Of a stretch of DNA of 64,000 bases, positions 18,938 through 35,622 are shown piece after piece. The notes beneath the pieces are model-generated. The model did not search any database and had not been told where the DNA came from. It saw nothing but the letters and a program-made list of their open reading frames with translations. The translations under genes were made by a program, and so were the position numbers. This DNA comes from Anaerolinea sp. (GTDB taxonomy: Bacteria; Chloroflexota; Anaerolineae; Anaerolineales; Villigracilaceae): positions 1 through 64,000 of the forward strand of contig JAIFNG010000021.1 of NCBI GenBank assembly GCA_020047815.1, read 5' to 3'. Position 1 is the first letter of the stretch, and every line of letters begins with the position of its first letter.

Positions 18938-20455
18938 TTAAGCGGCATAAGCGAGGGTGGGGATCACGACTATCTCGCGCAACTTCAAAGCCATGGCAGC
19001 GGTCTGGCGCCCGAAGTCAGTCAGGTAGTATTTGTAGCGTTTGCCAACTTTTTTGATCACGCCATGCACACGCAGCCGTTTGAGGAGGCGTGTGACTTGA
19101 CTGGCGGATTTGTTAGAAAGGTATTGGGTGCGCAATTGCTTGTTGGTGAAGCCACTAATGCAGAACTCGCCCTGCAACAAGGTGCGGAACAAAAAGGTAT
19201 CCTCTTCTGAGAAGAGATTAAAGCCCTTGTGACGATGCTGGTCTTCGGTCTTGGTTTCAGCCAAACGGTGCAATTGTTCCACGCCTACTTGGGGAGTTGC
19301 AATGGAGGAGATGAATTTGAGGTAGCGTTGATTGGAGGCAGAGAGGACTTCACGCAAAGCAGGCAAGGAGTGGATAGTCTTCTTCATCGGAGCCCAACGC
19401 ATAGTGGTTGAACCATCACGATGCTGAACCTGACGATACTGCTTGAAGAAGGCCACATTGTTGACCGTCGTCTCAATCCGCAAGATCAGGTTGAACTTAT
19501 CGTACATTTTGATGGAGACAGGACCCATCTGGTGCTTGATGCGCGTGCCGATCCAGCGCTTGTTGAAGCGATTACCCATCTCACCCTGGTAGTTGCCATT
19601 CAGTTTACGTCCAAGAAAAGTGGCAATATCTGCGGGTTTGACCGCATGAGTAAGGGTTTCCAGGAGAAGTGGGTAGAAGGCTTGCAAAGGTTCTCGGCTC
19701 TTGAAGACCAGATCTGTTGCGTACTCAGTTTGCATCATGCTCCAGTAATAGGTGAGGTTCAGTTCTGTGACCACTGGACAATATTGTTGGGCGAACTCAT
19801 CCAGACGCTGGTGCAAGCTTTCAACATCGAACTCGTTTGCCAGTTGATTAGCTCTCGCATAATCGTCGATATGGACAAAAGCATTATCCAACATTTTGCA
19901 GGCAATGCCCTGTTGCTTCAATTGGTTTGCCAGCCAGTTGTGTCCGTTGAAATAGAACTGCAATCGAAAAGGACACCAAGTCGGAACACGCAAATAGCAC
20001 AATCCCAGTTGCTCGTCCATGAAGTAGAAATAGTAGGTCATACATTTGCTGCTGCCTGATTTCAAATATGTTTTGCCGGTTACTTTATCATGCCATGGAA
20101 GATATGAGGAGCAAGCCTCCATCGCACCGATAATATGCACCAAGCCTGGTTGCTGGCCACACTCTTTCAAAATTTGTTGGATCCGTGTCTCTTTGCGAAA
20201 ATCTTTCTTGCGCATAAATTCGATTTTGATCCCGTTCGCCTGTGCCAGGGTTTCCGCGTTTTCTCGAAGGCGTTCGCGTAATGGCTCCGCAAATTTGGCG
20301 TAATCAAAAACCCGTATTCCGTGTCGATACAGATAGGAGGTCATTCCTTGGGCATAACAAATTGGATACAAACTACCAGTGATCACGATCCGATCATAGC
20401 AACTCAATACTCCATCCAGTTCATTGCTGTATCTTTCAGAAAGCAGTTCGTCCAT
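18938..20455 (-). CDS. Putative mobile-element protein with C-terminal winged helix, unknown mechanism
   Basis: 505 aa. It opens MDELLSERYSNELDGVLSCY and has conserved-looking blocks CYDRIVITGSLYPICYAQGM, YYFYFMDEQLGLCYLRVPTW and CPFRLQFYFNGHNWL, and a SIKMYDKFNLILRIETT block that resembles the replication-initiator domain of filamentous phages. The last 100 residues look like a winged helix (SNKSASQVTRLLKRLRVHGVIKKVGKRYKYYLTDFGR). From memory, related proteins recur as multi-copy hypothetical proteins, often labelled MarR-like; this is unverified. GGAG precedes the ATG. The terminal repeats and single-gene layout suggest a transposition or replication role. Confidence 0.6.
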   Translation of the reverse strand: MDELLSERYSNELDGVLSCYDRIVITGSLYPICYAQGMTSYLYRHGIRVFDYAKFAEPLRERLRENAETLAQANGIKIEFMRKKDFRKETRIQQILKECGQQPGLVHIIGAMEACSSYLPWHDKVTGKTYLKSGSSKCMTYYFYFMDEQLGLCYLRVPTWCPFRLQFYFNGHNWLANQLKQQGIACKMLDNAFVHIDDYARANQLANEFDVESLHQRLDEFAQQYCPVVTELNLTYYWSMMQTEYATDLVFKSREPLQAFYPLLLETLTHAVKPADIATFLGRKLNGNYQGEMGNRFNKRWIGTRIKHQMGPVSIKMYDKFNLILRIETTVNNVAFFKQYRQVQHRDGSTTMRWAPMKKTIHSLPALREVLSASNQRYLKFISSIATPQVGVEQLHRLAETKTEDQHRHKGFNLFSEEDTFLFRTLLQGEFCISGFTNKQLRTQYLSNKSASQVTRLLKRLRVHGVIKKVGKRYKYYLTDFGRQTAAMALKLREIVVIPTLAYAA

Positions 20456-20519
20456 GGCTCAACTCCAGTTTTTGCAATTGGGTTGAACTATCTAACCACA
20501 CTCTGCTAAAATATGCACC

Positions 20520-20607
20520 AGGGAAAGTCGCCGTCGGGAACAGCCTCGCGCTTATCCCATTTCTCTTGCCTCTGGCAAGCCATACCTTGTGCGACTTTCC
20601 CTTTTTG
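20520..20607 (+). ncRNA. Structured RNA-like region inside the mobile element
   Basis: A perfect 12-bp stem (AGGGAAAGTCGC at 20520-20531 with 20591-20602) encloses 59 bases that hold a 6-bp hairpin (20565-20570 with 20574-20579). TTTTT follows the right arm on the plus strand, as at the end of an intrinsic terminator, so a short RNA divergent from the 505-aa gene is possible. Read on the minus strand it would be the leader of that gene. Confidence 0.4.
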
Positions 20608-20627
20608 GTTTCGGCTTGTCCGAGTTA

Positions 20628-20642
20628 GGTTATTGTCACTTT
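20628..20642 (-). repeat. Right terminal inverted repeat
   Basis: Partner of the repeat at 18878-18892; on the minus strand it reads AAAGTGACAATAACC. Confidence 0.55.
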
Positions 20643-20650
20643 CTTATTAA

Positions 20651-21856
20651 ATGAAAAATTCGATCCGAAATATTATTGGAAGTTTCATCACATTGATCTT
20701 GATCGGGGGAATGATAACTTTGCGCGCATGGATCAGCGCCAACAGCTTTGATTTTCAGAGTTCAAACTTTTCCTTCTTCTGGCTATCGGGACGGATGACA
20801 ATGGAAGGCGAAAACCCATATAATGAAAGTCAGTACCTTGCAGGCCATGAAACGTATGGAATCAAATGGCAGCCCAACAGAATATTTCCCTACCCATTAC
20901 CGCTGGCTGTATTTTGCGTCCCGTTTGGCCTGCTTTCACTTCCCGCCGCATATATTACGTGGCAAGTTATCACACTCTTAATAGTGGCAGGTACAATTTA
21001 CATCTTATTGGATCACTGGCCCGATTCCCCACCCAGACGCTTGCTTTTCCCTATATTTGCCGCAATGTTTTTCTTCGGTCCACTTTACCTGACACTGCAC
21101 ACAGGCTCAATTGGCGCACTTGCTTTGCTTGTGGTAATTGGAGCGATTTTGTTGTTTGAAAAAGACAAATCACTTCTTGCTGGATTACTTCTCTCGCTGA
21201 CCATGCTCAAACCACCGCAAGGATTGACGATCCTATTACTGTCAGGAATCTGGTTTCTAGCGCGACGCGATTGGAAGGCGATCTCCGGCGTTGCAATTGG
21301 CGGAATTGTGTTAGTTTTGATCGGAATAATTCTAGACCCACTATGGGTAATAAAATTTCGTGGCGCAAGTGAGGCAGTAATGGATCGGACATTGGGGATC
21401 CACTCCAATGTCTGGTCAATTGCCCACTTAACGTGTGGTGGAGCTTTACCCTGTTCCATGATTCTCGGCGGAGTATTGGGAATGATCCTGCTTGGCCTTG
21501 GTGGATATTTCCTGTGGCATAATCACTCCAAACTAACAGCATGGGAATCGTTCAACATCATACTCCCGGTCAGTTTTGTTTCAACCATTTATTTATGGTC
21601 GTATGACCAACTACCGTACATCATCCCAATTGTATGGATTTCCGGAACACTGGTTAAAAATACGAAAAGTTACTTATATACCATTGTTTTCTTAATTTCA
21701 CTTGACATATTTTCATTTTTTGCGCTAAATAAACAGGCTGATACATCAAAAGACTTGTGGAGTTTTGGAACGTCAATTCTTGTACTCGGCATGGTCCTGT
21801 GGTTATACACACGACCTACTGCAGTTGTCGGTCAAGATACTCCTGCAAGCGCTTGA
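20651..21856 (+). CDS. GT87/DUF2029-like membrane glycosyltransferase
   Basis: 401 aa with about ten membrane helices. FSFFWLSGRMTMEGENPYN followed by QPNRIFPYPLPLAVF matches the DUF2029 (GT87) layout, polyprenyl-phosphate-mannose-dependent mannosyltransferases. The donor and acceptor are not shown. No Shine-Dalgarno is present because the right end of the mobile element stops eight bases before the ATG, so the native promoter may have been displaced. The 3' end overlaps the convergent kinase gene by 41 bases. Confidence 0.7.
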   Translation: MKNSIRNIIGSFITLILIGGMITLRAWISANSFDFQSSNFSFFWLSGRMTMEGENPYNESQYLAGHETYGIKWQPNRIFPYPLPLAVFCVPFGLLSLPAAYITWQVITLLIVAGTIYILLDHWPDSPPRRLLFPIFAAMFFFGPLYLTLHTGSIGALALLVVIGAILLFEKDKSLLAGLLLSLTMLKPPQGLTILLLSGIWFLARRDWKAISGVAIGGIVLVLIGIILDPLWVIKFRGASEAVMDRTLGIHSNVWSIAHLTCGGALPCSMILGGVLGMILLGLGGYFLWHNHSKLTAWESFNIILPVSFVSTIYLWSYDQLPYIIPIVWISGTLVKNTKSYLYTIVFLISLDIFSFFALNKQADTSKDLWSFGTSILVLGMVLWLYTRPTAVVGQDTPASA

Positions 21857-24800
21857 TTTCCACCTCAACTTGCTGAATCAGGACAGGAGCCCTTGCCAGG
21901 TCTTCCTCCCTGCCGCATATTTCAAGATTCGCCGCAGCTTCAGTTAACGGTTCGGCATTAAAGTTCAAGCACACGCCTTTTAGGTTGTGCGCTAACCTGC
22001 CGATGGTTTTAATGTCACCCACTTGCATGGCAGAGTTAAATTCCTCCATGCGTGCGGGTAAATGGTCTTTAAATTCCCGGCACATTTCCTTCAAGAAGAC
22101 TCGATCTCCCCCGAAACGAAATAAAGCGGATTCAAGGTCTGCAGGTAATTTATTGTTGGATAAAGACACCGCGGGTATAGGTTCAGGGTTCAGAGTCGAA
22201 ATGGGCTCACTCTCGCCAAGCCAATCCCTGCCCAAGTCGCCTGAAATATCCAATGGAACATCAACAATCGAGTCTTCTGTGGCGATCTGATCAGGCGCTT
22301 TCTTAGGCTCCGTATTCATTATCCAACGGTCAATGGCGGCAAACAAGACACGCGGCTCAAGCGGCTTTGTAACGTAATCATCCATTCCTGCGTCAATACA
22401 GCGATCCCGGTCTCCGGCCATGGCATGCGCTGTCATGGCAATAATAGGCATATGCTGACCATTTTGTGTTTCCCAGGCGCGGATGAGTCGCGTGGACTCG
22501 AATCCATCCATCTCAGGCATTTGCACATCCATTAGTACGGCACTATAAGGATTGGTTGTAACTTTCTCAAAAGCCTCAACGCCTGTCTCCACTGCATCTA
22601 CAAGATAGCCCGCTTTCTGCAAAAGTATGACGGCCAATTTTTGATTGACTGGGTTATCTTCAGCCAATAAAAGGCGAATGCCTGCGTTTCGCTTCTCTGA
22701 TAATACATGACGTGTAATGAGGCTGGCGGTCTCATCTTCGTTACGCCCCAGCACAGCCAGCACTGCATCAAATAACATTTGCTGTTTTACAGGTTTAAGT
22801 AGGTAGCCAGAGCAGCCCACGGCTTCAAGACGGGATGCATCTCCGCGCTGCCCCATGGAGGTCAGGATTAGGATCTTGACATCCTTGATGGATGGATCAC
22901 TCTTAATGGCACGGGCTGTCTGTTCACCGTCCATACCAGGCATTTGCATGTCGAGTAAAACGACATGATAGGGATCACCTGTGCGGGATGCGTTACGCAG
23001 ACTCTCGATACCTTTTGCTCCACTGGGAACGGCATCCACCCTGGAACCAAGCGATTCAACATTCTTTATCAATACCATGCGGTTAGTCTGGTTATCGTCC
23101 ACAATCAGGACTCGTGCATGGGTGAGGTTTACCGGTCCCGAAGATATAAGCGGACCTGTAACACCGCGTTTTTCCTGGATGAGCTTCTCGAATTGAAGAT
23201 CGAACCAAAAAGTCGTCCCTATACCAGGTTTGCTTTCAAGCCCGATTGTTCCACCCATAGCCTCAACCAACTGTTTGGAGATGGTTAACCCCAGCCCTGT
23301 TCCGCCATATGTGCGTGTGGTAGTTCCATCCGCTTGTGTAAAGCGTTCAAAGACTGCAGCTTGTCTTTCGTATGGGATCCCTATACCTGTGTCCTGCACA
23401 GAAAAATGTACGGTAATTATTTGATCTGTTTCTTCCTTTGGCTCAGCCCGAATGACAACCTCGCCTTGATGAGTAAATTTTATTGCGTTGCCGACAAGGT
23501 TTACCAATATTTGTCTCAAACGACCAGGATCGCCGCGCAGAGAGGAAGCCAGATCAGGGTCAACAAGACAAGCCATCTCAAGTCCCTTGTCTTGTGCTCG
23601 TTTGGCAAGGGTGTACGCCACGTCTTCAACAGAATTTCTAAGGCTGAAATTAATTGCTTCAAGTTCAAGCCTCCCCGCTTCGATCTTGGAGAAATCAAGA
23701 ATGTCGTTAAGTAATGATAAGAGCGCTTCAGCACTGTGCAACGATGTTTGCAGGTAATCAGTCTGCTCGGAAGTGAGCTGTGTATCCAGAGCCAGCTCGA
23801 GCATGCCGATCACGCCATTCATGGGCGTGCGAATTTCGTGACTCATGTTCGCCAGGAATTCGCTCTTGGCACGATTGGACTCCTCGGCTTCCCGTTGCGC
23901 ACGGACCAATTCGGAAATGTCGTGATACATTGCCAGAGTACCGATCTTTTGCCCATCAACAAAAACCGGCACGCCGAAGATCTCCACAGCCACCAGGGAA
24001 TCATCCTTGCGCTTACGTTTTCCAATGGCATGAACCGATTGGGTTACAACGGTCTGTGTGTAACGTGCAGCTTCCTCACGCGTCTCCAAATTTGTGATAA
24101 GAGTATCCAGATTTTCACCCAAAATCTCCGTATTCAAATATCCAAATAATTGTTCAAACGCGGGATTACTGGATATGATTTTTTCGTCGTTATCAAGCAC
24201 CACGATCGCAACCGGGCTGTTTTGCACGAGTGCCTCAAAATACTGTTTTTGGCGATTGGTTTCCAATGCTATTTTCTTTTGTTCGGTAATATCGCGCCCA
24301 ACGCCTACAAGCCCCATGATCCGCCCATTCCCATCATGTAAAGGCACTTTGGTGGTCGAAACCCATATTGGGTTACCCTGGCAATCCCGTCCGGGTTCTT
24401 CACGGCTTACAATCGGTACTCCCGAATCAAGAACAGATTTATCATCAGCCCAAAATCTGGCGGCCAATTCGGGCGGAAATGTATCAAAATCTGTTTTCCC
24501 AATCACCTCTTCCATTGTTTGACCACCCGATCCATGCATATCGGCAATATTTGAAATGATCTTTCGCCCCTCCATATCCTTTACATAAATGAAATCAGGA
24601 ATATTGTTGATCAGGGTGGTTAATAAATTTCGCTCGACCGCCAAACTTTCTTCCGCCTGCTTACGGTCGGTTATATCCCGGGCTACCCAAATCACAGAAT
24701 CATTTGTCATTGGAGAAACCAGGGCTGAAAACCAAACCTGCTTTTCATCAATCATCAGTCGGTATTCCACACTGCTCATCTCTCCGGTCTTTAACGTCCG

Positions 24801-25946
24801 ATGAATATTCTCAAGGAAGAACGCTGCCTGGTCTGACGGGAACATTTCCGTTACAGTTTTTCCCAATAAATCAACCGGTGGCCGGGAAAGTTTTGCTTGA
24901 TTGGTCGGCGCGATCATTAGATACCGGCCTTCAGAATCATAAACGATAATCACATCCGTCATTGCAGAAAAGAAGGCTCGCATTTGTGCCTCTGAAGCAC
25001 TCAGAGCCTCCAAAGCCTCCTTCCTTGCAGTAATATCCTCCTTCACTGCCAGGAAGTGGGTTATTTTCCCACTTTCATTAAGTATCGGAGAAATAGTTGC
25101 GGACTCCCAATACAAATCACCATTTTTCTTTTTGTTGTGAAACTCACCACGCCACTCACCTCCAGCCAAAATTGTGTCCCACAATTTTTTATATTCGTCT
25201 GAAGAGGTGTATCCAGATTTTAAAACGCGTGGATTCCTTCCAATTGCTTCTTCAAGTGTATAACCTGTCGTCTCAGAAAATTTTTTATTTGCATATTCAA
25301 TATTGCCGTCAACATCCGAAATAACAATGGTTGAACCACTTTGCTCAACCGCACGCGATAGTTTGCGCAACTGCTCATTTGCCTGAACGCGTTCGGTAAT
25401 ATCATGTAGGATGCAGATTTCATTTTCAGATTCCCCGTAAATATTGATCGGGCAGATCGTCTTGTCGTAAATACGATTAAGCCAACAAAATTCACCACCA
25501 GCAGAACTCATTGTTTGATCTTTCTGCTCCTGCCCTATTGACAAAATTTCGGTTAATCTTTTTCCTATCACCGTCTGATAGGTTAAATTGCTCCTATCCA
25601 ATACCGCATGATTACAACGGATAATCACCCCATTCTTCTTAGTGACAAAAACAGGGTCAGTGAAGGCATCAAAGGTGGTTTCCCATTCTTTTTTCGCATG
25701 AGAAATAACTGACAAAAAACTGCGCTGTTGGCCCATTAACCCTGCCACGAAACCCAAAACCAGCGGAGCAAGTTCAATGATCCAAATTAAAGGCTGCGTC
25801 TGATGAAGATGCAAGAAAGCCTCAAGTGTAATAGGCTGTTGTCGCATATTAAATTCAACCAAAAATCCAAACAGGGGGAATAAAAATCCTGCAAAGAACC
25901 CTAATGCTGCATAATGAGTGATTGTTCGATTTTTATACCAAGCCAT
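21816..25946 (-). CDS. Hybrid sensor histidine kinase with five PAS, two receivers and Hpt
   Basis: 1376 aa. Two membrane helices (about 11-35 and 55-75) are followed by five PAS/PAC units between about 85 and 690, several closing with DITERVQ/DITARKE/DITDRKQ/DITEQKK-type junctions. Then come HisKA with phospho-accepting H703 (NMSHEIRTPMNG), a HATPase (NLVGNAIKFT, GTGLGLTISKQLVEAMGG), two receivers (D999 in LLDMQMPGMDG, D1140 in LMDVQMPEMDG), and a C-terminal Hpt with H1320 (AHNLKGV). It thus holds a whole BarA-like phosphorelay; the output regulator is not nearby. The ATG at 25946 is chosen because GGAGG lies six bases upstream; a TTG four codons earlier overlaps that site. The signal is unknown. 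Confidence 0.93.
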   Translation of the reverse strand: MAWYKNRTITHYAALGFFAGFLFPLFGFLVEFNMRQQPITLEAFLHLHQTQPLIWIIELAPLVLGFVAGLMGQQRSFLSVISHAKKEWETTFDAFTDPVFVTKKNGVIIRCNHAVLDRSNLTYQTVIGKRLTEILSIGQEQKDQTMSSAGGEFCWLNRIYDKTICPINIYGESENEICILHDITERVQANEQLRKLSRAVEQSGSTIVISDVDGNIEYANKKFSETTGYTLEEAIGRNPRVLKSGYTSSDEYKKLWDTILAGGEWRGEFHNKKKNGDLYWESATISPILNESGKITHFLAVKEDITARKEALEALSASEAQMRAFFSAMTDVIIVYDSEGRYLMIAPTNQAKLSRPPVDLLGKTVTEMFPSDQAAFFLENIHRTLKTGEMSSVEYRLMIDEKQVWFSALVSPMTNDSVIWVARDITDRKQAEESLAVERNLLTTLINNIPDFIYVKDMEGRKIISNIADMHGSGGQTMEEVIGKTDFDTFPPELAARFWADDKSVLDSGVPIVSREEPGRDCQGNPIWVSTTKVPLHDGNGRIMGLVGVGRDITEQKKIALETNRQKQYFEALVQNSPVAIVVLDNDEKIISSNPAFEQLFGYLNTEILGENLDTLITNLETREEAARYTQTVVTQSVHAIGKRKRKDDSLVAVEIFGVPVFVDGQKIGTLAMYHDISELVRAQREAEESNRAKSEFLANMSHEIRTPMNGVIGMLELALDTQLTSEQTDYLQTSLHSAEALLSLLNDILDFSKIEAGRLELEAINFSLRNSVEDVAYTLAKRAQDKGLEMACLVDPDLASSLRGDPGRLRQILVNLVGNAIKFTHQGEVVIRAEPKEETDQIITVHFSVQDTGIGIPYERQAAVFERFTQADGTTTRTYGGTGLGLTISKQLVEAMGGTIGLESKPGIGTTFWFDLQFEKLIQEKRGVTGPLISSGPVNLTHARVLIVDDNQTNRMVLIKNVESLGSRVDAVPSGAKGIESLRNASRTGDPYHVVLLDMQMPGMDGEQTARAIKSDPSIKDVKILILTSMGQRGDASRLEAVGCSGYLLKPVKQQMLFDAVLAVLGRNEDETASLITRHVLSEKRNAGIRLLLAEDNPVNQKLAVILLQKAGYLVDAVETGVEAFEKVTTNPYSAVLMDVQMPEMDGFESTRLIRAWETQNGQHMPIIAMTAHAMAGDRDRCIDAGMDDYVTKPLEPRVLFAAIDRWIMNTEPKKAPDQIATEDSIVDVPLDISGDLGRDWLGESEPISTLNPEPIPAVSLSNNKLPADLESALFRFGGDRVFLKEMCREFKDHLPARMEEFNSAMQVGDIKTIGRLAHNLKGVCLNFNAEPLTEAAANLEICGREEDLARAPVLIQQVEVEIKRLQEYLDRQLQ

Positions 25947-26137
25947 TGCTGCCTCCAAAAACTCAGAAAAGGGTTTAATACCTTTAATTATTTAGTTTAG
26001 CACACACTACCACGGTTAGTGTATTGCAGCCTTATTATGATTCCCGCAGGATGTATAATGCACAAATAGGATTATTCACATAAAAGGGAAGGTTATTTGC
26101 TTTTTTAATATTTGAATATTAATTTTTCCTGTCTTAA

Positions 26138-26164
26138 TAAAAAGGGATGGCATCGTTGCCACCC
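26138..26164 (-). terminator. Terminator after metG
   Basis: On the minus strand an imperfect 8-9 bp stem (26144-26152 with 26157-26164) is followed by TTTTTATTA, 33 bases after the metG stop. Confidence 0.7.
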
Positions 26165-26196
26165 CTCGCATAAAACACCATTCCCAATTTCACAAT

Positions 26197-28002
26197 CTAG
26201 TTATCCAACCTCGCCCGTTCTTCGGCAACTACAATTTCGTCCAGCTTCTTAAACAGCGGACCAGGCTGATTCAACTTCCTGCCAGGCTGTAAATTACTGG
26301 GTTTCCAATGGAATCCTTCCACGCCCTTGTATCTTAGAACCGTATGTTCACCGAGCGAGTCGCTTACCGTCTCAGTAAATTGTTCGCCAAATAGTGGAGT
26401 TTCATAACCAAAATACTTGTGAAGTTTCTCGCAGGTGAATGGCAGGAATGGGGCAAAAAGTACCTTGAGAGAATCGATAGCCTTGAGTGCAGTATAGACC
26501 GTCTTACCCGCTTCGACTTTATCCACTTTGATGGCTGACCAGGGTGCATTAACATCAAGGTATTGATTGACCACAGTGGCGAGTTTCATCGCTTCGCCCA
26601 AAGCAGAACGCAGGCGTACGGCTTCGAGTTCCGCGCCCACTGTTTTAAATCCGTTTTCAATAGTGGCGAGCAAGGAAAGATCAGCATCCCGCAGGGACGA
26701 AGTCTCCGCCCCATCAAAAGACGGGACACACCCATCCCAATTTTTATAACAAAAAGCCAGCACGCGGTTCGCAAGGTTACCCCATGTCGCCACCAATTCG
26801 TTATTATTGCGCGCTACAAACTCTGCCCAATCCCAATCACTATCCTTGGCTTCAGGCATATTCACAGTCAGGTAATAGCGGATGGCATCGGGATCAAAGC
26901 GGGTCAGGGCGTCACGTCCCCAAACAGCCCAGTTACGCGACCCGCTGATTTTCTTTCCTTCAAGATTCATGAATTGATTGGCCGGTACGTCATACGGGAG
27001 AATCAGCGGAACTTCCTCGCCCGCGAACAATTCCATAAAAGCGCTGCCAACCCCCATCAACTCGGCAGGCCAAAGTGATGTATGGAAAAAGATGTTATCC
27101 TTGCCGATAAAGTGGAATTGCTTCGCGCTGGGGTTCGTCCACCAATCGCGCCACGCATCCTTCTGACCCGTTATTTGCGCCCACTCAACCGGGGCAGAGA
27201 GGTAGCCAATGACTGCCTCAAACCAGACATAAAGTTTTTTTGTTTCCCAGCCAGCCTCGCTAACAGGGACAGGGATTCCCCAATCGAGGTCACGGGTGAT
27301 GGCGCGCGGCTTAAGTCCCTCGGCTTCCACCTTCCGCAGTGACTCTCCAAGTACGGTGTCGCGCATATAGCTGGAACGCGCCTGGAGGTAATTCTTGACA
27401 TCTGGCTCGAGCTTTGAGAGGTCAATGAAATAATGTTCCGTATCACGAAGTTCAGGCGAAGAAGTATCACCTTCGACCTTTGAACGCGGATTAATTAGCT
27501 TTGTGGGGTCAAGCACATTGCCACAGGCGTCGCATTGATCTGAACGTGCGCCTTCCGTGTTGCAGATATAACAGGTACCTTCAATGTAACGGTCTGGCAG
27601 GAAGCGCTTCAACCCAGGGGAGAACCATTGCGGCTCCACTTTTGTAAAAAGGAATCCATTCTTTTTCAACGCGAGAAACATGGTCTGGGAAACCTTGAAA
27701 TGATTCTCACTGTGGGTTGTAGTGTACAGGTCATACGAAATGCCTAGCTGTTTAAATAGCTCAATAAAACCTTCGTGATAAGACTTGTACACCTCTTCAA
27801 CCGGCTTGCCTAGTTTATCCGCGCTCATCGTAACCGGTGTGCCATGTGAGTCAGTACCGGTGATCATTAGCACCTTGTTTCCCTTCAGACGGTGATAACG
27901 TGCAACAATATCTCCCGGCAGGTGTGACCCGGTCAGGTTTCCAACATGAATTTCAGCATTGGCATATGGCCATGCGACAGCAATTAAAATATTTTCGGGC
28001 AT
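26197..28002 (-). CDS. metG: Methionyl-tRNA synthetase
   Basis: A 601-aa class-I aminoacyl-tRNA synthetase that charges tRNA-Met. The HIGH motif is HVGN (residues 19-22), KMSKS is KISGS (351-355), and a zinc knuckle is CYICNTEGARSDQCDACG. The C-terminal tRNA-binding (EMAP-like) domain of some MetG is absent, so it is the short form. The start at 28002 has GGAGG eight bases upstream and begins MPENILIAVAWPYANAEIH, typical for the family. About 105 bases upstream is an intrinsic terminator preceded by a Met-rich reading frame, so the gene is probably under attenuation control. Confidence 0.97.
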   Translation of the reverse strand: MPENILIAVAWPYANAEIHVGNLTGSHLPGDIVARYHRLKGNKVLMITGTDSHGTPVTMSADKLGKPVEEVYKSYHEGFIELFKQLGISYDLYTTTHSENHFKVSQTMFLALKKNGFLFTKVEPQWFSPGLKRFLPDRYIEGTCYICNTEGARSDQCDACGNVLDPTKLINPRSKVEGDTSSPELRDTEHYFIDLSKLEPDVKNYLQARSSYMRDTVLGESLRKVEAEGLKPRAITRDLDWGIPVPVSEAGWETKKLYVWFEAVIGYLSAPVEWAQITGQKDAWRDWWTNPSAKQFHFIGKDNIFFHTSLWPAELMGVGSAFMELFAGEEVPLILPYDVPANQFMNLEGKKISGSRNWAVWGRDALTRFDPDAIRYYLTVNMPEAKDSDWDWAEFVARNNNELVATWGNLANRVLAFCYKNWDGCVPSFDGAETSSLRDADLSLLATIENGFKTVGAELEAVRLRSALGEAMKLATVVNQYLDVNAPWSAIKVDKVEAGKTVYTALKAIDSLKVLFAPFLPFTCEKLHKYFGYETPLFGEQFTETVSDSLGEHTVLRYKGVEGFHWKPSNLQPGRKLNQPGPLFKKLDEIVVAEERARLDN

Positions 28003-28106
28003 TTGTGCCTCCGTAATTTTTTTTACCACAAAAGGCACGAAGAAACAACAAGGGGAAATGACAAAACCTTTATGCTCTTTTCATGTTTTATGGTTGCATT
28101 TACAAA

Positions 28107-28137
28107 CAAAAAAGCCGTCCGCGTAATGGACAGCCCG
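28107..28137 (-). terminator. Attenuator terminator in the metG leader
   Basis: On the minus strand GGGCTGTCC (28136 to 28128) pairs with GGACGGCTT (28120 to 28112), nine pairs including three wobbles, loop of seven, followed by T6 (28113 to 28108). It lies between the Met-rich leader peptide and metG. Confidence 0.75.
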
Positions 28138-28180
28138 TTTTAGTTCAGGTGTATAAACCTAACGTGCTTTCCATTCGGCG
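28120..28180 (-). promoter_or_regulatory. Candidate antiterminator of the metG attenuator
   Basis: Minus-strand segment 28180 to 28166 (CGCCGAATGGAAAGC), the last sense codons of the leader peptide, can pair with segment 28134 to 28120 (GCTGTCCATTACGCG) at 12 of 15 positions. The second segment contains the 5' arm and loop of the terminator, so the two structures exclude each other. A ribosome stalled on the Met codons upstream leaves the first segment free; one that reaches the stop codon covers it. Confidence 0.7.
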
Positions 28181-28260
28181 CAATAGGACATTCCCATTCG
28201 CATTTCACTGCGCATGGCCATGGTTATTGCCACCATTGGAAAAGCAGAGTTGGTCTTCAT
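28159..28260 (-). CDS. Methionine-rich leader peptide of metG
   Basis: A 33-aa reading frame ending in TAG, with Met at positions 1, 9, 14, 16, 20, 22 and 24; the stretch MAMRSEMRMGM has five Met in eleven residues. It lies on the same strand as metG, 156 bases upstream, and is followed 21 bases later by an intrinsic terminator. I read it as a leader peptide sensing Met-tRNA charging, comparable in logic to pheM of pheST or the trp and his leaders. No Shine-Dalgarno is seen; a predicted promoter would start the RNA at or next to the ATG, so translation may be leaderless. Alternatives: chance frame, or a short functional protein. Confidence 0.7.
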   Translation of the reverse strand: MKTNSAFPMVAITMAMRSEMRMGMSYCAEWKAR

Positions 28261-28267
28261 GACGTTT

Positions 28268-28296
28268 AGTTTACTATGTCCCGTGCTGTGGTGCAA
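28268..28296 (-). promoter_or_regulatory. Predicted promoter of the metG leader
   Basis: On the minus strand TTGCAC (28296-28291) and TAAACT (28273-28268) are 17 bases apart. Each is a partial match to the sigma-70-type boxes. The expected start is around 28261, right before the leader ATG at 28260. Confidence 0.45.
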
Positions 28297-28477
28297 GTCT
28301 TCATCATCCCCTTATCCCCCAGTGTCTTAACTACGCAGGCCTTTTTCAAGCATACCGCTTTAAGAACAAGATCCGCACTTTCAATCTTATCTACTATCAG
28401 AATTGTGAATGTTAAGGATTTCGCCAGGGAAAATTAGCGCTCCCACATACATCGTTACATGCGGTAAACTCTACGCC
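28274..28477. other. Divergent intergenic region between the metG leader and the EamA gene
   Basis: Apart from the predicted leader promoter, I see no gene or strong structure here. It must hold the promoter of the EamA gene on the plus strand, but no clear boxes stand out. Confidence 0.4.
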
Positions 28478-29407
28478 ATGTCCAATCAACGCGCACAACG
28501 GATGCTCCCTTTTGCAATTCTAATTGCCATTCTGACTGTCTCTACATCTAGCGTTTTCATCCGCTTCGCGCAAAATGACGGTGCACCTTCGCTCGTGGTT
28601 GCGGCTTTACGTCTAACATTTGCAACCCTGATCCTGGCACCCATTGCACTCACAAGGCATCGTGAAGAAATAAAACGCTTTACTCTAAAAGAAATACTGC
28701 CCGGCGCTTTCTCAGGAATTTTCCTCGCTTTACATTTTGCTACTTGGATATCCTCTCTCGAATATACCAGTGTGGCGAGCTCGGTCGTCTTCGTTAGCAC
28801 CGGCCCACTCTGGGTAGCGTTGCTCTCGCCTATCTTATTAAAGGAGAATCTCGCGCGGACTGCTGTCATCGGGTTGGGGTTGTCAATGATAGGAGGGACA
28901 ATTATCGGAATATCTGACGCGTGTACTTGGGATGCCGGTTTATCATGTCCAGCCTTGCAGAATGTCCTTCAGGGACGTGCAATGTTGGGCAATTTCCTAG
29001 CCTTGATCGGCGCATGGACAGTAACCGGATATCTGATCATCGGCAGAAAATTACGAGCGGACATTTCGCTCCTGCCATACATATTCATGGTATATGGCTT
29101 TGGCGCAGTAACGTTGATCATTATTATGTTTGCTTCAGGTAGTTCGCCATTTGGGTATGCACCAAAGACATATGGCTGGATACTTTTACTTGCCGCCCTT
29201 CCCCAATTAATTGGACACTCCACCTATAATTGGGCACTGAAATACCTGCCTGCTGCACTGGTAGCTGTCACCACACTTGGCGAACCGATTGGTTCGGCGA
29301 TTTTGGCATTTTTCATTTTAAGTGAAACTCCAACGTTTGCAACCATGATAGGGGGAGTTTTTATCTTGGCGGGAATTTATCTTGCATCATCCCGAACATC
29401 GAAATAA
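28478..29407 (+). CDS. EamA/DMT-family transporter
   Basis: 309 aa with about ten membrane helices in two EamA repeats (SSVFIRFAQNDGAPSLVVAA in the first, NWALKYLPAALVAVTTLGEP in the second). Such carriers export metabolites or amino acids; substrate unknown. The start at 28478 is chosen because the hydrophobic core begins soon after; an in-frame ATG at 28409 adds 23 residues of unlikely character. The next small membrane protein gene starts four bases after the stop. Confidence 0.85.
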   Translation: MSNQRAQRMLPFAILIAILTVSTSSVFIRFAQNDGAPSLVVAALRLTFATLILAPIALTRHREEIKRFTLKEILPGAFSGIFLALHFATWISSLEYTSVASSVVFVSTGPLWVALLSPILLKENLARTAVIGLGLSMIGGTIIGISDACTWDAGLSCPALQNVLQGRAMLGNFLALIGAWTVTGYLIIGRKLRADISLLPYIFMVYGFGAVTLIIIMFASGSSPFGYAPKTYGWILLLAALPQLIGHSTYNWALKYLPAALVAVTTLGEPIGSAILAFFILSETPTFATMIGGVFILAGIYLASSRTSK

Positions 29408-29411
29408 AGAG

Positions 29412-29738
29412 ATGCCGATGAATTGGATCATTCTTATTTTGATTACCCTCATCGTGAACATCCTCACATTTGCGATCTGTGGTTTTGGAGGAGGCTTCAT
29501 ATTGCTCGTTGCCATAAATGGATTCTCCGAAGCAGATGCAACATCCATTTTCGTAATATTCGCCCTCATGGTATTTGGTATCAGTTTTTTTCTTTCCACA
29601 GCAGCTTGTTGGGTATTTTTGAAAGCGCGTCGCGTCGAAAAAACAGTCCGATTTTGGCAAACAGCGGTAATCAACGTCGGCGTAAACGTAACCATAATTT
29701 TGGCAGTTACATCCTTTTTTGCGATCTTTCGTCTTTGA
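29412..29738 (+). CDS. Small membrane protein, unknown
   Basis: 108 aa with three hydrophobic segments (about 5-30, 42-68 and 82-105). I do not recognise the family. It lies in a tight run: EamA gene, this gene, gluconokinase, YbaK. An alternative ATG two codons later is possible. Confidence 0.65.
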   Translation: MPMNWIILILITLIVNILTFAICGFGGGFILLVAINGFSEADATSIFVIFALMVFGISFFLSTAACWVFLKARRVEKTVRFWQTAVINVGVNVTIILAVTSFFAIFRL

Positions 29739-29761
29739 CGGGAAAATCCCAATCAATAGTT

Positions 29762-30244
29762 ATGATAATCATCATTATGGGCGTGGCAGGTTCCGGAAAA
29801 ACCACTATCGGCTTGCTTCTGGCAAAGGAGCTTGGCTGGACTTTTTTTGATGCTGATGACTATCATTCAGAAGCGAACCGTGTAAAAATGTCAACAGGCT
29901 TAGCTTTGACAGACGATGATCGGGCAAATTGGTTACTAATGCTTAAAGAATTGATCACCCAAAATATCCGCAGGGGCAACCCCGCAGTACTTGCTTGTTC
30001 AGCACTAAAACATTCATACCGCAAAACGCTTGAAGTGAATGAGCAGGTAAAATTCATCCACCTCCGAGGAACATACGAACAGATCAAGGAACGCCTCGAT
30101 CGTCGTTCCGGCCATTTTATGCCGGCAGGAATGCTGGACAGTCAATTTCATACCCTTGAAGAACCTCAAAACACATTTACAGTTGATATCACAAACACAC
30201 CGCAGGACATTCTTGTCATCATTCGCAAAGGATTAAATATATGA
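29762..30244 (+). CDS. gntK: Gluconokinase
   Basis: 160 aa, full length for the P-loop gluconokinase family that makes 6-phosphogluconate from gluconate and ATP. Motifs: MGVAGSGKTTIG (Walker A), FFDADDYHSEANRVKMSTG, LTDDDRANWL, ACSALKHSYRKTL, HLRGTYEQIKERL and GHFMPAGMLDSQFHTLEEP. The reading frame is open much further upstream but the family starts at this ATG. Its stop overlaps the next start (ATGA). No gluconate transporter is adjacent. Confidence 0.9.
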   Translation: MIIIIMGVAGSGKTTIGLLLAKELGWTFFDADDYHSEANRVKMSTGLALTDDDRANWLLMLKELITQNIRRGNPAVLACSALKHSYRKTLEVNEQVKFIHLRGTYEQIKERLDRRSGHFMPAGMLDSQFHTLEEPQNTFTVDITNTPQDILVIIRKGLNI

Positions 30245-30726
30245 TACTCCAATCCCACCTTTATTTAGACAAATTAAACATCCCATATGAAACTCGCACG
30301 TTTTCACCTGACACGGAAAAGGGAGCAGCGAACGTTGCCCATGTGCTGGGCTTTTCTGAACGGCAAGCAGTGAAGACTCTCATCTTTCAAGTGGACACTG
30401 GTGAACGGGTGTTGGTCATGCTTGGAGGCGACCAAAATGCAATTTCTGGAAATTTAAAGAAGGCAATTGGGTCACGCAACATTCAGATGGCTTCCCCCGA
30501 AGTGGTGAAAGAAACAACGGGGTACATTATTGGCTCGATACCTGCCTTTAGCTGGCAGCCAGATAACTTCCGCTCATTCCTCGAATCAAGCCTTCTCAAC
30601 GAAACCATCCTTGGTACAGGTGGAGGTCAATGGGGCGTGGAGATCATGATCACACCGGAAAATTTGGTTAAGGCCAGCCATGCGATAGTGGTTAATTTGA
30701 CAGAAAGGGAAAAGACCTCAGGATAA
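30241..30726 (+). CDS. YbaK/EbsC-family aminoacyl-tRNA deacylase-like protein
   Basis: 161 aa, single YbaK domain (EKGAANVAHVLGFSERQAVKTLIF, ALGGDQNAISGNLKKAIG-type MLGGDQNAISGNLKKAIG, TGYIIGSIPAF). Such proteins remove mischarged amino acids, often Cys from tRNA-Pro, in trans. It overlaps gntK by four bases and is probably translationally coupled. Confidence 0.85.
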   Translation: MILQSHLYLDKLNIPYETRTFSPDTEKGAANVAHVLGFSERQAVKTLIFQVDTGERVLVMLGGDQNAISGNLKKAIGSRNIQMASPEVVKETTGYIIGSIPAFSWQPDNFRSFLESSLLNETILGTGGGQWGVEIMITPENLVKASHAIVVNLTEREKTSG

Positions 30727-30742
30727 AGAAACGTAAGTGATA

Positions 30743-30774
30743 AAAAACAGGACTGTGGAAACAGTCCTGTTTTT
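30743..30774. terminator. Bidirectional terminator between ybaK-like gene and malQ
   Basis: A 14-bp perfect stem (30743-30756 with 30761-30774), GGAA tetraloop, A-run on the left and T5 on the right, two bases before the malQ stop on the opposite strand. Confidence 0.9.
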
Positions 30775-30775
30775 C

Positions 30776-32281
30776 TTATCTCAAGTACATCCAATTCAGC
30801 TCATGTAGTTTCCCAGCCAGGTGATCATTAATATCTTCATCCTTCATGCGCCATTCCCAATTTCCGCCCAACCTGCTTGGGAAGTTCATACGCGCTTCAC
30901 CACCACAACCCAATACATCCTGCATGGGAGTAACAGCGATATTGGCGACCGAACCCCAGACTGCACGGATCAAATCCCACGCAAAATCACTTCCATCAAC
31001 ACGCAGGTAGCGCTGGGCAAATTCGCGTTCCTGCTGTTCGGCGGCGGCAAACCAACCAAGCGCCGTATCATTATCATGGGTGCCTGTGTATGCCACGCAG
31101 TTGGGAACATAATTGTGTGGCAGGAACGGGTTGTCAGGTCCTGAAAATCCGAACTGCAACACCTTCATGCCAGGCAGGTCAAAGGTTTCAAGTAATGCAA
31201 TGACATCCGGTGTCACCAAGCCCAAGTCCTCTGCAATAAAGGGCAAACCGATGCTTGAGGTGATCAAGCCATCGCCAAGATATTTATCAATGGCGCGGAA
31301 CAGCTCCTGGCCTGGTCCTGGTACCCAGCGGCCAAATTCTGCGGTTTTGTGATCAGCAGGAATTTCATAATACCCGGCAAATCCCCGGAAATGGTCAAAG
31401 CGCAGGATATCAAAAATTTTCAGGGAAGCTCGCACACGTGAAAGCCACCATGCATAGCCGTCTTTTTTGTGAACTTCCCAGTTATAGAGCGGGTTGCCCC
31501 ACAACTGTCCAAACGCGGAGAAAATATCAGGCGGGACGCCAGCAACAACCGTCGGATTCCCTGCTTTATCCAAATAAAATAATTCGGGGTGAGCCCAGAC
31601 ATCAGCTGAATCATTCGCCACAAAAATGGGAATATCACCAATAATCTGAATGTTACGGTCATTTGCATATAAACGCAACTTGTCCCACTGACGGAAGAAT
31701 AGGAATTGATAAAAAGCATGGCGCAGGACACTTGCCGAGAGTTCCTTCTGCGCTTTGCGCAATACAGTCTTTTTACGGGAGCGCAAGTCCTGAGGCCAGC
31801 CGCTCCATGCCCCGCCGCCATTGGATTCTTTTAACGCCATAAAGAGGGTGTAATCATCCAACCAGGAAGCATTCTCTGCACAAAAATAATCGAACGCCTG
31901 CTGCAGATATTCAGGCTTGGTTTGGTAGGTGGAAAAAGCCTTTTGTAACAGATCAAGTTTTCGGGGGATAACCATCCCAAAGTTTACGCGGGCGGCGGGC
32001 AGGTCTTTGATCGCATCCAAATCATCCTGTGTCAACAATCCATCCGCTAGCAAGGCATCAGGGCTGATCAGATATGGATTTCCAGCGAACGCCGAAAAAC
32101 ACTGGTAGGGCGAATCACCATATCCCGTGGGGCCAAGAGGAAGCACCTGCCAGAGTTTGCAACCAGTGGAAGCCAGCCAATCTATGAAACGATAGGCTTG
32201 CGGACCAAGATCACCTATTCCATAGGGACCCGGCAAACTGGATGGGTGAAGAAGAATACCTGAAGAACGTTTGAATTTCAT
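30776..32281 (-). CDS. malQ: 4-alpha-glucanotransferase
   Basis: A 501-aa GH77 amylomaltase that moves maltodextrin segments. It starts MKFKRSSGILLHPSSLPGPY, typical, and shows RFDHFRGFAGYYEIP (nucleophile Asp), FIAEDLGLVTPDV (acid/base Glu) and YTGTHDNDT (third Asp). Its ATG overlaps the glgA stop (ATGA), so the two are coupled. Together with glgA and the phosphohexomutase it indicates glycogen or maltodextrin metabolism; no glgC or glgB is in the window. Confidence 0.95.
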   Translation of the reverse strand: MKFKRSSGILLHPSSLPGPYGIGDLGPQAYRFIDWLASTGCKLWQVLPLGPTGYGDSPYQCFSAFAGNPYLISPDALLADGLLTQDDLDAIKDLPAARVNFGMVIPRKLDLLQKAFSTYQTKPEYLQQAFDYFCAENASWLDDYTLFMALKESNGGGAWSGWPQDLRSRKKTVLRKAQKELSASVLRHAFYQFLFFRQWDKLRLYANDRNIQIIGDIPIFVANDSADVWAHPELFYLDKAGNPTVVAGVPPDIFSAFGQLWGNPLYNWEVHKKDGYAWWLSRVRASLKIFDILRFDHFRGFAGYYEIPADHKTAEFGRWVPGPGQELFRAIDKYLGDGLITSSIGLPFIAEDLGLVTPDVIALLETFDLPGMKVLQFGFSGPDNPFLPHNYVPNCVAYTGTHDNDTALGWFAAAEQQEREFAQRYLRVDGSDFAWDLIRAVWGSVANIAVTPMQDVLGCGGEARMNFPSRLGGNWEWRMKDEDINDHLAGKLHELNWMYLR

Positions 32282-33705
32282 GATTTTTTGATAAGCAATA
32301 GATAGAGTTGGAGATATTTTTGGGCTGAGTTCTCCCAGGAGAAGTCCTGGGCCATGCCTGCACGTTGAATCGCCTGCCATCTTTCGTTTTCATTAAATAC
32401 TTTGAATGCAGATTTGATGGCGGCAACCAATGACATGTGATGGGCTTTTTCAAACACAAAACCAGTTACCCCATGTTTAACAGTATCATTCAACCCGCCC
32501 GCTGCGCGCACCACAGGCACGCAGCCGTAACGCATGGAAATCATTTGCGAAAGCCCGCAGGGTTCATAACGCGAAGGCATTAAAAACATATCAGATCCAG
32601 CATAAATCTGACGGGCAAGCCCGGCATCATAGCGGGTTTCAACTTTTACTCGATCAGGAAATAATTCCTGTACCTTCAATGCTGCTTCCTCAAGTTTGGG
32701 GTCACCCGTCCCTAAAATGACCGCCTGCCATTTAGAACGCTTCATCATCTTGAGCGCGGCAAAGACCATGTCAACGCCTTTTTGCACATCCATACGGGAT
32801 ACCATTGCCAGCAGGGGTATTTCGGGTTCCCGCGGCAGGCCAAGCCTGGCCTGGAGCAATGCTTTGTTGATGGTTCGTTTATCGAGCGAATTCAAATCAA
32901 AATTCCCACCCAGTGCCGGGTCATCTGCGGGATTGAATGAATCCGTATCTAATCCGTTCAATATCCCACTAACTGTTTCACTTCGGGAACGAAGAAATTC
33001 ATCCAACCCGCAGCCATATTCCTGAGTGAGAATTTCCCTGCCATAGGTCGGAGAGACTGCCACGATGGCGTCTGATGCCCACAATCCCAAAGGCAGAGGC
33101 ATCACACGAGCCCATTCGGGCAGATCTGTCTGGGCAAGTTTAAAGCCATAGCTTTCTATGATTGAACTTGCATCCGGGCCCATAAATGGGAGGTTATGCA
33201 GGGTGATGACGGATGCAACATGAGGTGCGCCTTCTTCCCAACGTTTTGTGAGAGAACCGTACATACTCAGCGCTGTATGCCAGTCATTGCCATGGATGAG
33301 ATTAGGCTGCCAGTTGATGTGGCGGGGCAGTTCCAGTGCTGCAAAGGAAAAGAAAGCATATTTTTCAGCATCCAACATCGCGTTCAACGAATAAACAGAA
33401 CCGCTCACACGTATCGGCTCACCGCCAATCAGGTAAACTGTCATTCCATTTAACGCTGTCTCAAATACCTCGACCTGGATCTCAGCGCCATTACGCATCA
33501 GCGAAAACATACCCATGGGTTTCAAATTCTCTGCTTTGACGGCAGGGTGGTACGGCAAAACAAGCCGAACATCCAGCTTTACATCATCATTGGAAAGAGC
33601 GCGCAGGGCACGCGGTAGTGAACCAGCCACATCACCCAATCCGCCAACCTTGATAAAAGGTTCGGCTTCTGCTGCCAGAAAAAGAACGTTGATTGTTTGG
33701 GACAT
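32278..33705 (-). CDS. glgA: Glycogen synthase (ADP-glucose type)
   Basis: A 475-aa GT5 enzyme that adds glucose from ADP-glucose to alpha-1,4-glucan. The N-terminal KVGGLGDVAGSLPRAL is the nucleotide-sugar-binding motif; NLIHGNDWHTAL, VSRMDVQKGVD and MPSRYEPCGLSQMISMRYG (catalytic Glu region) are all present. It is the first gene of the glgA-malQ pair. Confidence 0.95.
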   Translation of the reverse strand: MSQTINVLFLAAEAEPFIKVGGLGDVAGSLPRALRALSNDDVKLDVRLVLPYHPAVKAENLKPMGMFSLMRNGAEIQVEVFETALNGMTVYLIGGEPIRVSGSVYSLNAMLDAEKYAFFSFAALELPRHINWQPNLIHGNDWHTALSMYGSLTKRWEEGAPHVASVITLHNLPFMGPDASSIIESYGFKLAQTDLPEWARVMPLPLGLWASDAIVAVSPTYGREILTQEYGCGLDEFLRSRSETVSGILNGLDTDSFNPADDPALGGNFDLNSLDKRTINKALLQARLGLPREPEIPLLAMVSRMDVQKGVDMVFAALKMMKRSKWQAVILGTGDPKLEEAALKVQELFPDRVKVETRYDAGLARQIYAGSDMFLMPSRYEPCGLSQMISMRYGCVPVVRAAGGLNDTVKHGVTGFVFEKAHHMSLVAAIKSAFKVFNENERWQAIQRAGMAQDFSWENSAQKYLQLYLLLIKKS

Positions 33706-33967
33706 GCGGGCAATTGTACATCAAAACACCCAAGCTTACAGCAGGGTGTTTGAGGGAAATTTTCCCGATCTATGTCTGCGGATGGTGCAGACCGAGCCTT
33801 GTCTGCCCGTGAAAAGTCAGGAATAAATTGTATCCTTTGGCAATCAATCTCATGACTTTGCGCCATAATAAATTATCAACCTTCCGATTACAATTCATTA
33901 GTGAAATATAAGACAAACACTATCGTCAAGTCGGAAAAGAACAAAACCATATCGTAGGAGAACAAAC

Positions 33968-34390
33968 ATGAATCCACAAATACTCGCCCTGCTCACAGCC
34001 GCAGCCTGGGGCATTGGCGGCTACTATGAAAAAAAAGGACTACACCTGGGCGGCCTCTCCCCACAAATGGGCATCACAATTCGCACAGCAGTGGCTCTGA
34101 TCGTGCTTGGAGTTGTTTCCTTCCCACAGTGGAAAACAATTCCCCAGGCGGGTCCAAAAGCCCTGCTGATGATGGTCATTGGCGGCGGCATCGTCGCAGG
34201 TTCGGTTGGAATGCTTTGTTATTATGCTGCCATCAAAGGCGCTCCGCTCAACATGGTTATGCCGATCGCATTCACATCCCCTTTCTTCGGCGTACTTATG
34301 GGGATTATTGTCGGCGGGGAGCCACTAACCTGGAAAACTGCCATTGGTGCCTTATTGACCCTGGCCGGCATCATCACTCTGACCATCTAA
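33968..34390 (+). CDS. Half-size EamA-domain membrane protein
   Basis: 140 aa with one EamA repeat and about five helices (ALLTAAAWGIGGYYEKKGLHLG, ... TIAGALLTLAGIITL-like C-terminus). Such half-size transporters work as dimers. A good GTAGGAG precedes the start. Substrate unknown. Confidence 0.8.
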   Translation: MNPQILALLTAAAWGIGGYYEKKGLHLGGLSPQMGITIRTAVALIVLGVVSFPQWKTIPQAGPKALLMMVIGGGIVAGSVGMLCYYAAIKGAPLNMVMPIAFTSPFFGVLMGIIVGGEPLTWKTAIGALLTLAGIITLTI

Positions 34391-34424
34391 TTTCACCTCT
34401 GGCGATTTGTTTCTGCCAATCAGC

Positions 34425-34466
34425 CAAAAAAAACGCACCCAACCTTTTCTTCAAGTTGGGTGCGTT
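34425..34466 (-). terminator. Terminator of the radical-SAM unit
   Basis: A 12-bp perfect stem (34432-34443 with 34455-34466). On the minus strand a T-run of about eight bases follows, so it ends transcripts of the radical-SAM gene; on the plus strand no T-run is present. Confidence 0.75.
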
Positions 34467-34483
34467 GTGTGTATTAAATCGGC

Positions 34484-34621
34484 TCAACCCAACAGCTTAA
34501 CCCTGATAAATAAACGTTCCCTGGCTATTTTGGATATATCCTCCACATTCGGATGTTTATTTTCCATGCGAATGCCCTTGAGTTTCGCCGCCTGAGGCAC
34601 GTGGCAAAGATAATCAACCAC
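34484..34621 (-). CDS. Possible small gene after the radical-SAM gene
   Basis: A 45-aa frame from a GTG four bases after the radical-SAM stop to a TGA 17 bases before the terminator hairpin. It is hydrophilic (RMENKHPNVEDISKIARERL) with one Cys. Position within the transcript supports it, but it lacks a good ribosome site and could be the tail of a decayed gene. Confidence 0.4.
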   Translation of the reverse strand: MVDYLCHVPQAAKLKGIRMENKHPNVEDISKIARERLFIRVKLLG

Positions 34622-34625
34622 CCGC

Positions 34626-35489
34626 TCATTTCATCACCCCATACATCTGATCCGGATTAAGATATTGCGGAAAGCGCTCCCTCAGCGTGGTCCGCACTTC
34701 GTAGCACAAGTGGCAGGCATCAGCGTAACGCGCAGCATGCGGAAGATTGTATTCCCTCACCAGTGCAGCAGGCCCCCCTGCAATCAGAATCCCACATATT
34801 GGGTGAGAATCAGCATCATATTCCGCACAGATCCCATTAAGTGGTGCCTCGAATACGTTCCCGATCGAAACACCCTGGCAAATTTGGAGATTCCCCAGTG
34901 GATCAAGATGGACTCGGCCAGGCTCACGTAAATCTTCGTGTGGACAGGATTCAAACTCTTCCCAAGGATGGCTGACCGCCCTTTCAGAAAGTTTTTTCGC
35001 CGCCCTTCCTCGATACATAACTATCGCTTCTCCATCAACTTCAGGCTGGTCAATGCTGATCATCCCTGTAGGAATGTGCAGCCACTTCGCCGCGACAAGC
35101 GCATTTTGGGGACATTCACCCAGGCATTCGCCGCAATGATAAATATCACTGCTCACTGTCAGGTCAGAAAGACACCCCGCAATTGGACTCAACCACTCCA
35201 CAGCATCTGCAACTGAGATTGCCCAATAGGCATTGGAAACAATACCGACTTCAAACCCCATATCCGCCGCCTTGCGAACCGCCTTAACCAATATGGCATA
35301 ATACAGGAATGGTTCGCCGCCTTCAAAATAGATCGAGGTGACACCTGCCTGTTTAGCCTGCATAAGAATATTTTCAATTTGCTCAAATGTGAGTGTGCCG
35401 TTTTGCCGTGGACTACCCCACACGAAACAGTGATCACATTCAAATGTGCATTGATATGTGAGTAGAATATGAAGACCTGTAAGTTTCAT
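34626..35489 (-). CDS. Radical SAM protein
   Basis: 287 aa. The SAM cluster motif is CTFECDHC (CxxxCxxC) near residue 15-25, followed by SIYFEGGEPFLY. The middle holds HCGECLGECPQ, and the second half CPHEDLREPGRVHLDPLGNLQICQG plus CGILIAGG and CHLC, which suggest extra iron-sulfur ligation of the SPASM/twitch sort. Substrate unknown; the fold is that of peptide- or anaerobic-activase-type enzymes. The start at 35489 has AAGGAG; a TTG start at 35513 would add eight residues. Confidence 0.85.
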   Translation of the reverse strand: MKLTGLHILLTYQCTFECDHCFVWGSPRQNGTLTFEQIENILMQAKQAGVTSIYFEGGEPFLYYAILVKAVRKAADMGFEVGIVSNAYWAISVADAVEWLSPIAGCLSDLTVSSDIYHCGECLGECPQNALVAAKWLHIPTGMISIDQPEVDGEAIVMYRGRAAKKLSERAVSHPWEEFESCPHEDLREPGRVHLDPLGNLQICQGVSIGNVFEAPLNGICAEYDADSHPICGILIAGGPAALVREYNLPHAARYADACHLCYEVRTTLRERFPQYLNPDQMYGVMK

Positions 35490-35622
35490 TATGAACTCCT
35501 TGCTCACCTCCAATATACAAATTTATTAAGGGAAAGTCACGGGTCAAAAATCACATGACAAGCTTTACAAAGTAACCTATTAAATGTTGTGTATGCATTA
35601 TTTTTCCTTCGTCATAAGGCTG

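Follow-up and report, generated by a model that had tools for sequence, protein, structure and literature searches.

How does a bacterium of the Anaerolineales adjust the synthesis of its methionyl-tRNA synthetase? The question is raised by a window of 64,000 nucleotides of Anaerolinea sp. (GCA_020047815.1, contig JAIFNG010000021.1), in which metG lies on the minus strand at 26197-28002. Its product is a class I methionyl-tRNA synthetase (Pfam PF09334, E = 1.2e-133); the gene starts with ATG at 28002, preceded by GGAGG at 28012-28008, and is presumed to be the controlled gene. A first-pass annotation had read the region upstream as a leader-peptide attenuator. Comparison with relatives supports this reading: the frame, its Met codons and the alternative pairing are kept in the genus, the family and most sampled families of the order. 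We consider it very likely that the metG leader works by ribosome-mediated transcription attenuation and responds to elongator Met-tRNA.

The frame of 33 codons with seven Met that had been claimed on the metG strand is indeed there. Read directly on the minus strand, it occupies 28260-28159, from ATG at 28260 to TAG at 28161-28159, encodes MKTNSAFPMVAITMAMRSEMRMGMSYCAEWKAR and is conserved among relatives. Six of its seven Met residues are internal; their codons start at 28236, 28221, 28215, 28203, 28197 and 28191. Since the upstream neighbour, a frame at 28409-29407 on the plus strand, is divergent, the leader requires a promoter of its own. The sequence offers one on the minus strand: a -35 box TTGCAC at 28296-28291 (TTGACA or TTGCAA in many relatives of the genus), 17 nt, a -10 box TAAACT at 28273-28268, 7 nt, and the ATG. 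By program, 33 of 36 genus leaders have 7 nt from -10 box to ATG and two have 6 nt (L048 and L062); in L008, where the program placed the box wrongly, the distance is 7 nt by eye. Transcription is expected to start 7-8 nt past a -10 box. This point falls at the ATG, and the leader frame of the window is therefore probably read from a leaderless mRNA, the start site being deduced from the promoter. Several leaders outside the family (L058, L085, L086, L088) have a Shine-Dalgarno-like or GA-rich stretch before the ATG; judging from these, a leaderless start is not universal among metG leaders.

Is the Met richness more than chance? A single rule was applied to all metG upstream regions: a frame of 8-65 codons had to stop just before a terminator and was scored by its internal Met. 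Such terminator-linked frames with at least three internal Met were found in 35 of 36 loci of the genus as compared to 2 of 360 dinucleotide shuffles, in 6/6 loci of other genera of the family (shuffles 1/60), in 13/24 of other families of the order (1/240) and in 12/62 of the rest of the class (3/620). Outside the class, none of 15 loci had one, versus 3 of 150 shuffles. Within the chosen frames of genus and family, 251 ATG triplets are in frame and 1 and 10 are in the other two frames; in other families of the order the figures are 60, 3 and 1. The frames were picked for their Met count, which makes the shuffles the fairer control. Met accounts for 19.5% of the residues after the start in the genus peptides versus 1.7% in MetG. 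Short frames with at least five internal Met are in themselves no rarity: if the terminator is left out of the rule, the minus strand of the window yields eight others of 8-65 codons, all of them longer (at least 46 amino acids). As a control, the upstream regions of other synthetase genes were scored; 2 of 22 reach two internal Met, none more.

Between the frame and metG, the intrinsic terminator with T6 of the first-pass annotation was recovered at 28136-28108 (minus strand). Its stem spans 28136-28112, the T6 28113-28108. That it serves the upstream gene could be ruled out, since the upstream frame of the window is divergent and the upstream sequences differ among relatives. Pairing tests and folding delimit three further segments on the same strand. 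Segment 1, GCTTTTCCA at 28245-28237, is the partner of segment 2. The latter comprises the last codons of the frame, 28180-28166, with the core AATGGAAAGC at 28175-28166, and is the 5' side of the putative antiterminator. Segment 3, GCTGTCCATTACGCG at 28134-28120, is the 5' arm and loop of the terminator and at the same time the 3' side of the antiterminator. The pairing of 28180-28166 with 28134-28120 at 12 positions, as had been proposed, holds for the leader of the window (row L002). Taken alone, however, this 2:3 duplex is not clearly above chance (p = 0.060 versus shuffles); it is conservation that carries the case.

The whole leader is predicted to fold into the terminator and a long hairpin in which early codons pair with late ones, with -50.8 kcal/mol and a z score of -3.33; none of 200 shuffles folded as well. 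For the individual states, the ribosome was assumed to cover the RNA as far as 12 nt beyond position 1 of the A-site codon. With the ribosome placed at each of the six internal Met codons, segment 2 is predicted to pair with segment 3 (-20.3 to -33.9). The RNA used for these folds ended with the terminator loop, the 3' arm being omitted; with the 3' arm included, which was done for the last Met codon only, the 2:3 pairing is still the predicted minimum (-22.3). With the ribosome at the stop codon, the downstream RNA folds as the terminator (-13.0, predicted). Both states of the claimed mutual exclusion were therefore obtained by folding: the antiterminator excludes the terminator and takes up a stretch that would be covered by a ribosome standing at the stop codon. 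A third pairing, of segment 1 in the early codons with segment 2 in the last ones, would complete the classic three-state set; it is a prediction from folding. In 31 of the 42 leaders of genus and family, the last Met codon comes 27 or 30 nt ahead of the stop, and in 30 of them it comes 9-12 nt ahead of segment 2.

The frame, the Met bias, the terminator and the conserved alternative pairings are known from sequence, and we infer from there to start site, translation, stalling and readthrough. Transcription would begin at or beside the ATG of the Met-rich frame. With ample Met-tRNA, the ribosome would reach the stop codon and cover segment 2; the terminator (3:4) would form and metG would be off. 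With scarce Met-tRNA, it would stall at one of the six internal Met codons and leave segment 2 free to pair with the 5' arm of the terminator (2:3), and the polymerase would read through into metG. If the leader were not translated at all, 1:2 would pair and termination would be the default. One consideration counts against the model: low Met-tRNA implies low fMet-tRNA as well, hence less initiation at the leader and a push toward termination.

How far does the arrangement extend? Counted by the rule and, for a few loci, by eye, it is present in 36 of 36 readable leaders of the genus, in 6/6 loci of other genera of the family, in 17/24 of other families of the order, in 17/62 elsewhere in the class and in 0/15 outside the class. 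The first-pass annotation had set conservation among relatives beforehand as the refuting test; the arrangement persists in genus, family and most sampled families of the order, and it is missing from some of the class and from the loci beyond it. The arrangement is absent from 7 of the 24 other-family loci of the order and from most class loci. The program alone, at a threshold of at least two internal Met, yielded 36 loci for the genus, 6 for the family, 16 for the order, 21 for the class and none outside the class. For the order, L033 was added by eye; for the class, five spurious or other-type loci (L076, L084, L153, L158, L162) were removed and L170 was added by eye. The genus set comprised 37 genomes, of which G031, G034 and G035 were unreadable (no metG start was obtained for G031 and G034); two more genus genomes came from other sets. 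Rows with too little upstream sequence were dropped: from the first sets L025, with 27 nt, and the short L068, and likewise L238, with 27 nt, from a second, named set. The latter consists mostly of bacteria named Anaerolineales, Anaerolineae or Chloroflexi and includes Herpetosiphon sp. (L205) and OLB14 (L253). It contributed 80 loci, 79 usable and 51 new, and 49 of the 51 new ones have at least two internal Met. Within the genus, L012 has kept only two.

While the peptide sequences diverge, their Met richness, the terminator and the pairing of the last codons with its 5' arm persist. This pattern bears on the possibility that a small, functional protein rich in Met is made from the frame, which would have a terminator of its own, metG being transcribed from a different promoter. 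The in-frame bias of ATG indeed indicates a coding frame, and within the genus its last codons show conservation. Yet the peptides of other families have little in common except Met, the conserved end doubles as a strand of the antiterminator, and the peptide belongs to no Pfam or NCBIfam family. Nor did a scan of the window reveal a promoter-like site between terminator and metG, although the promoter of the leader itself escaped the same scan. A small protein is very unlikely, we think.

The last codons are better conserved than the Met positions. This would suit a variant in which the same three-state RNA answers any slowing of leader translation and the Met codons matter little; so would the fact that nothing but the position of the ribosome decides whether segment 2 is covered. 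It is hard to see, however, why Met richness should then be retained while the peptide sequences change, or why metG should be the downstream gene at all 20 sites where the genus terminator was found; we regard a general sensor of slow translation as quite unlikely. These sites stem from a search with the genus terminator sequence (up to three mismatches): 20 of 37 genus genomes have a single copy, always just upstream of metG, and the 14 genomes of other families searched have none.

Some leaders carry insertions. A repeat of 27 aligned nt lies within the leader frames of L024, L063, L064 and L182, and a similar stretch in L224 and L267; all six frames remain open despite the repeat among their Met codons. 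It has CTTGCACC...GCAAGTGCAGGTG arms, and a similar repeat occurs also in spacers (e.g., L182, L090). In relatives, the spacer between terminator and metG contains inverted-repeat elements that differ between species (e.g., L014, L015, L023).

To return to the attenuator and its pairings: in the 42 leaders of genus and family, the terminator is paired in 100% of cells, the antiterminator 2:3 in 95.8% and 1:2 in 87.9%. Covariation of 1:2 is above shuffles (7/500 reach the score). That of the antiterminator is not in these 42 leaders (151/500), and their consensus fold displays the terminator and not the antiterminator. A wider set comprised 83 leaders whose arm is of the GGCTGTCC type; 70 of them keep to a fixed register. 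In these 70, register positions 8 and 9 covary, with 1 and 0 among 5000 shuffles matching their scores (relatedness uncorrected); both connect segment 2 with the terminator loop and are in no terminator stem. Positions 7 and 10 of the same 70 leaders do not stand out (672 and 806 of 5000). Once identical combinations are collapsed, 34 distinct ones remain; of 10000 shuffles, 155 and 862 then match positions 8 and 9, and 613 match both together. By these counts the covariation support is real, although weaker when identical combinations are collapsed and not corrected for the tree.

In 123 leaders of all types (L076, L084, L153, L158, L162 and L271 omitted), the leaders' own terminator arms beat swapped ones once row and column means are removed; none of 10000 permutations was as good. 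There are exceptions: where the arm is TGCTGGC, as in 10 leaders, the end of the leader has a better fit to GGCTGTCC arms than to its own (raw energy -15.1 versus -11.4). Duplex tests on single leaders gave p values of at most 0.05 in 13/36 loci of the genus, 0/6 of the family, 3/16 of the order and 5/16 of the class; the pooled p values of this test are uncorrected for relatedness.

A strongly folded leader (z -3.33) could, of course, also be a metabolite-binding riboswitch or a T-box that overlaps a reading frame by accident. The first-pass annotation had seen neither a T-box nor a SAM riboswitch at metG, and the Rfam scans agree. In the window, 20000-36000 yielded only three matches at E up to 5, all of them by chance and to families from eukaryotes or archaea. 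In the metG loci of 20 relatives, nothing matched at the gathering score, a threshold that misses four of the five T-boxes of the window's own genome. Neither the T-box (RF00230) nor SAM riboswitch families were matched at metG in either scan. In this genome, T-boxes were detected at five synthetase genes other than metG: at thrS above the gathering score and at ileS, valS, serS and leuS below it, with E values from 1.1e-17 to 9.5e-11; the synthetase identity of each Pfam match is our own reading. At proS (L139) of this genome, Rfam gave no match. A T-box, a SAM riboswitch or any other Rfam family at metG is thus rejected on the scans of window and relatives; with the ATG bias confined to one frame in addition, an accidental overlap is extremely unlikely.

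Short frames occur also behind T-boxes. In five of seven leuS loci examined (L103, L104, L105, L106, L107), a frame with WKQGPLLAGLL or similar and a good Shine-Dalgarno sequence lies past the T-box region; this Leu-rich frame is possibly a second control. Three of seven thrS loci (L120, L121, L124) have a short frame starting MTxHTRRRLGG between T-box and thrS.

Other leaders of metG look different. In other orders of the class, nine of 62 class loci (L084, L149, L151, L153, L163, L167, L169, L171, L172) have a motif with a single Met codon, such as RQASAAKGNMGA, before metG, followed by a GC-rich hairpin; in L167 and L171 it lies within a longer frame that resembles the end of the upstream gene. 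A strict DNA pattern of the motif, which misses seven of the nine loci, matches in 5 of 120 class genomes, all five times just upstream of metG. Rfam, at E up to 0.1, had no match for five loci of this type and four of a Chloroflexia type. The RQASAAKGNMGA-type motif may be a second, translation-based sensor. Outside the class, four of seven metG loci of one family (L189, L191, L193, L194) have frames that end with LRLTARGFMAG or similar; a hairpin spans the stop codon in three of the four, and Rfam found no match.

Why should metG dispense with a T-box? The CAU anticodon is common to both tRNA-Met species, initiator and elongator, and internal AUG codons read the elongator only, which suggests an answer; it is an idea and not a result. 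It can be extended, with more doubt than confidence: bacteria which use T-boxes for other tRNAs may sense Met-tRNA by translation, since only a ribosome at an internal AUG reads the elongator alone. This need would have been met at least twice, once by runs of Met codons with an attenuator, and once by the single-Met motif AAKGNMGG before metG in other orders of the class, which may act as an arrest peptide.

The mechanism is known. In the part of the open literature that was searched, neither a Met-specific leader-peptide attenuator nor any at metG was found; the Met specificity may be new, although a paper by Lopatovskaya from 2010 is, by its title, a comparative one on the same subject. If the present reading is true, Met joins the amino acids, and Chloroflexota the phyla, for which leader-peptide attenuation is known, the control frame being apparently leaderless; the locus would then be a natural test of how the supply of elongator Met-tRNA is sensed apart from an initiator with the same anticodon.

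How does the metG leader compare with known systems? With the T-box leaders (RF00230) at thrS, ileS, valS, serS and leuS it shares the task, the sensing of tRNA charging; unlike these, it has no T-box match and would sense via the translating ribosome. Mycobacteria reportedly have leaderless polycysteine frames, short frames rich in one codon that control genes for the respective amino acid. The metG leader resembles them, being short, apparently leaderless and rich in one codon, but it has a plain intrinsic terminator and alternative pairings, and its codon doubles as the start codon. Amino acid attenuators are listed for Ile/Val and Phe besides those in Rfam, which are for His, Leu, Thr and Trp (PMC3766115), and Met T-boxes are reported in Firmicutes as well as T-boxes in Chloroflexi (PMC2494555); leader-gene statistics include Chloroflexi and are termed insignificant for such small groups (PMC4833913). 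In bacilli, hisZ and hisS* have His leader peptides (PMC2965389). As there, a leader peptide precedes a synthetase-family gene where relatives use a T-box; here, in contrast, five other synthetase genes of the genome retain their T-boxes, and among those examined only metG has a Met leader. Also close are the attenuators of pheST, trpS2 and leuS in gamma-proteobacteria and Streptomyces (trpS2 and leuS in the latter), for which control by leader peptides is described (PMC1262725). They share with metG a leader peptide with cognate codons, a terminator and an antiterminator before a synthetase gene; they differ in that here the codon is Met, the phylum is Chloroflexota and the leader of the window is apparently leaderless.
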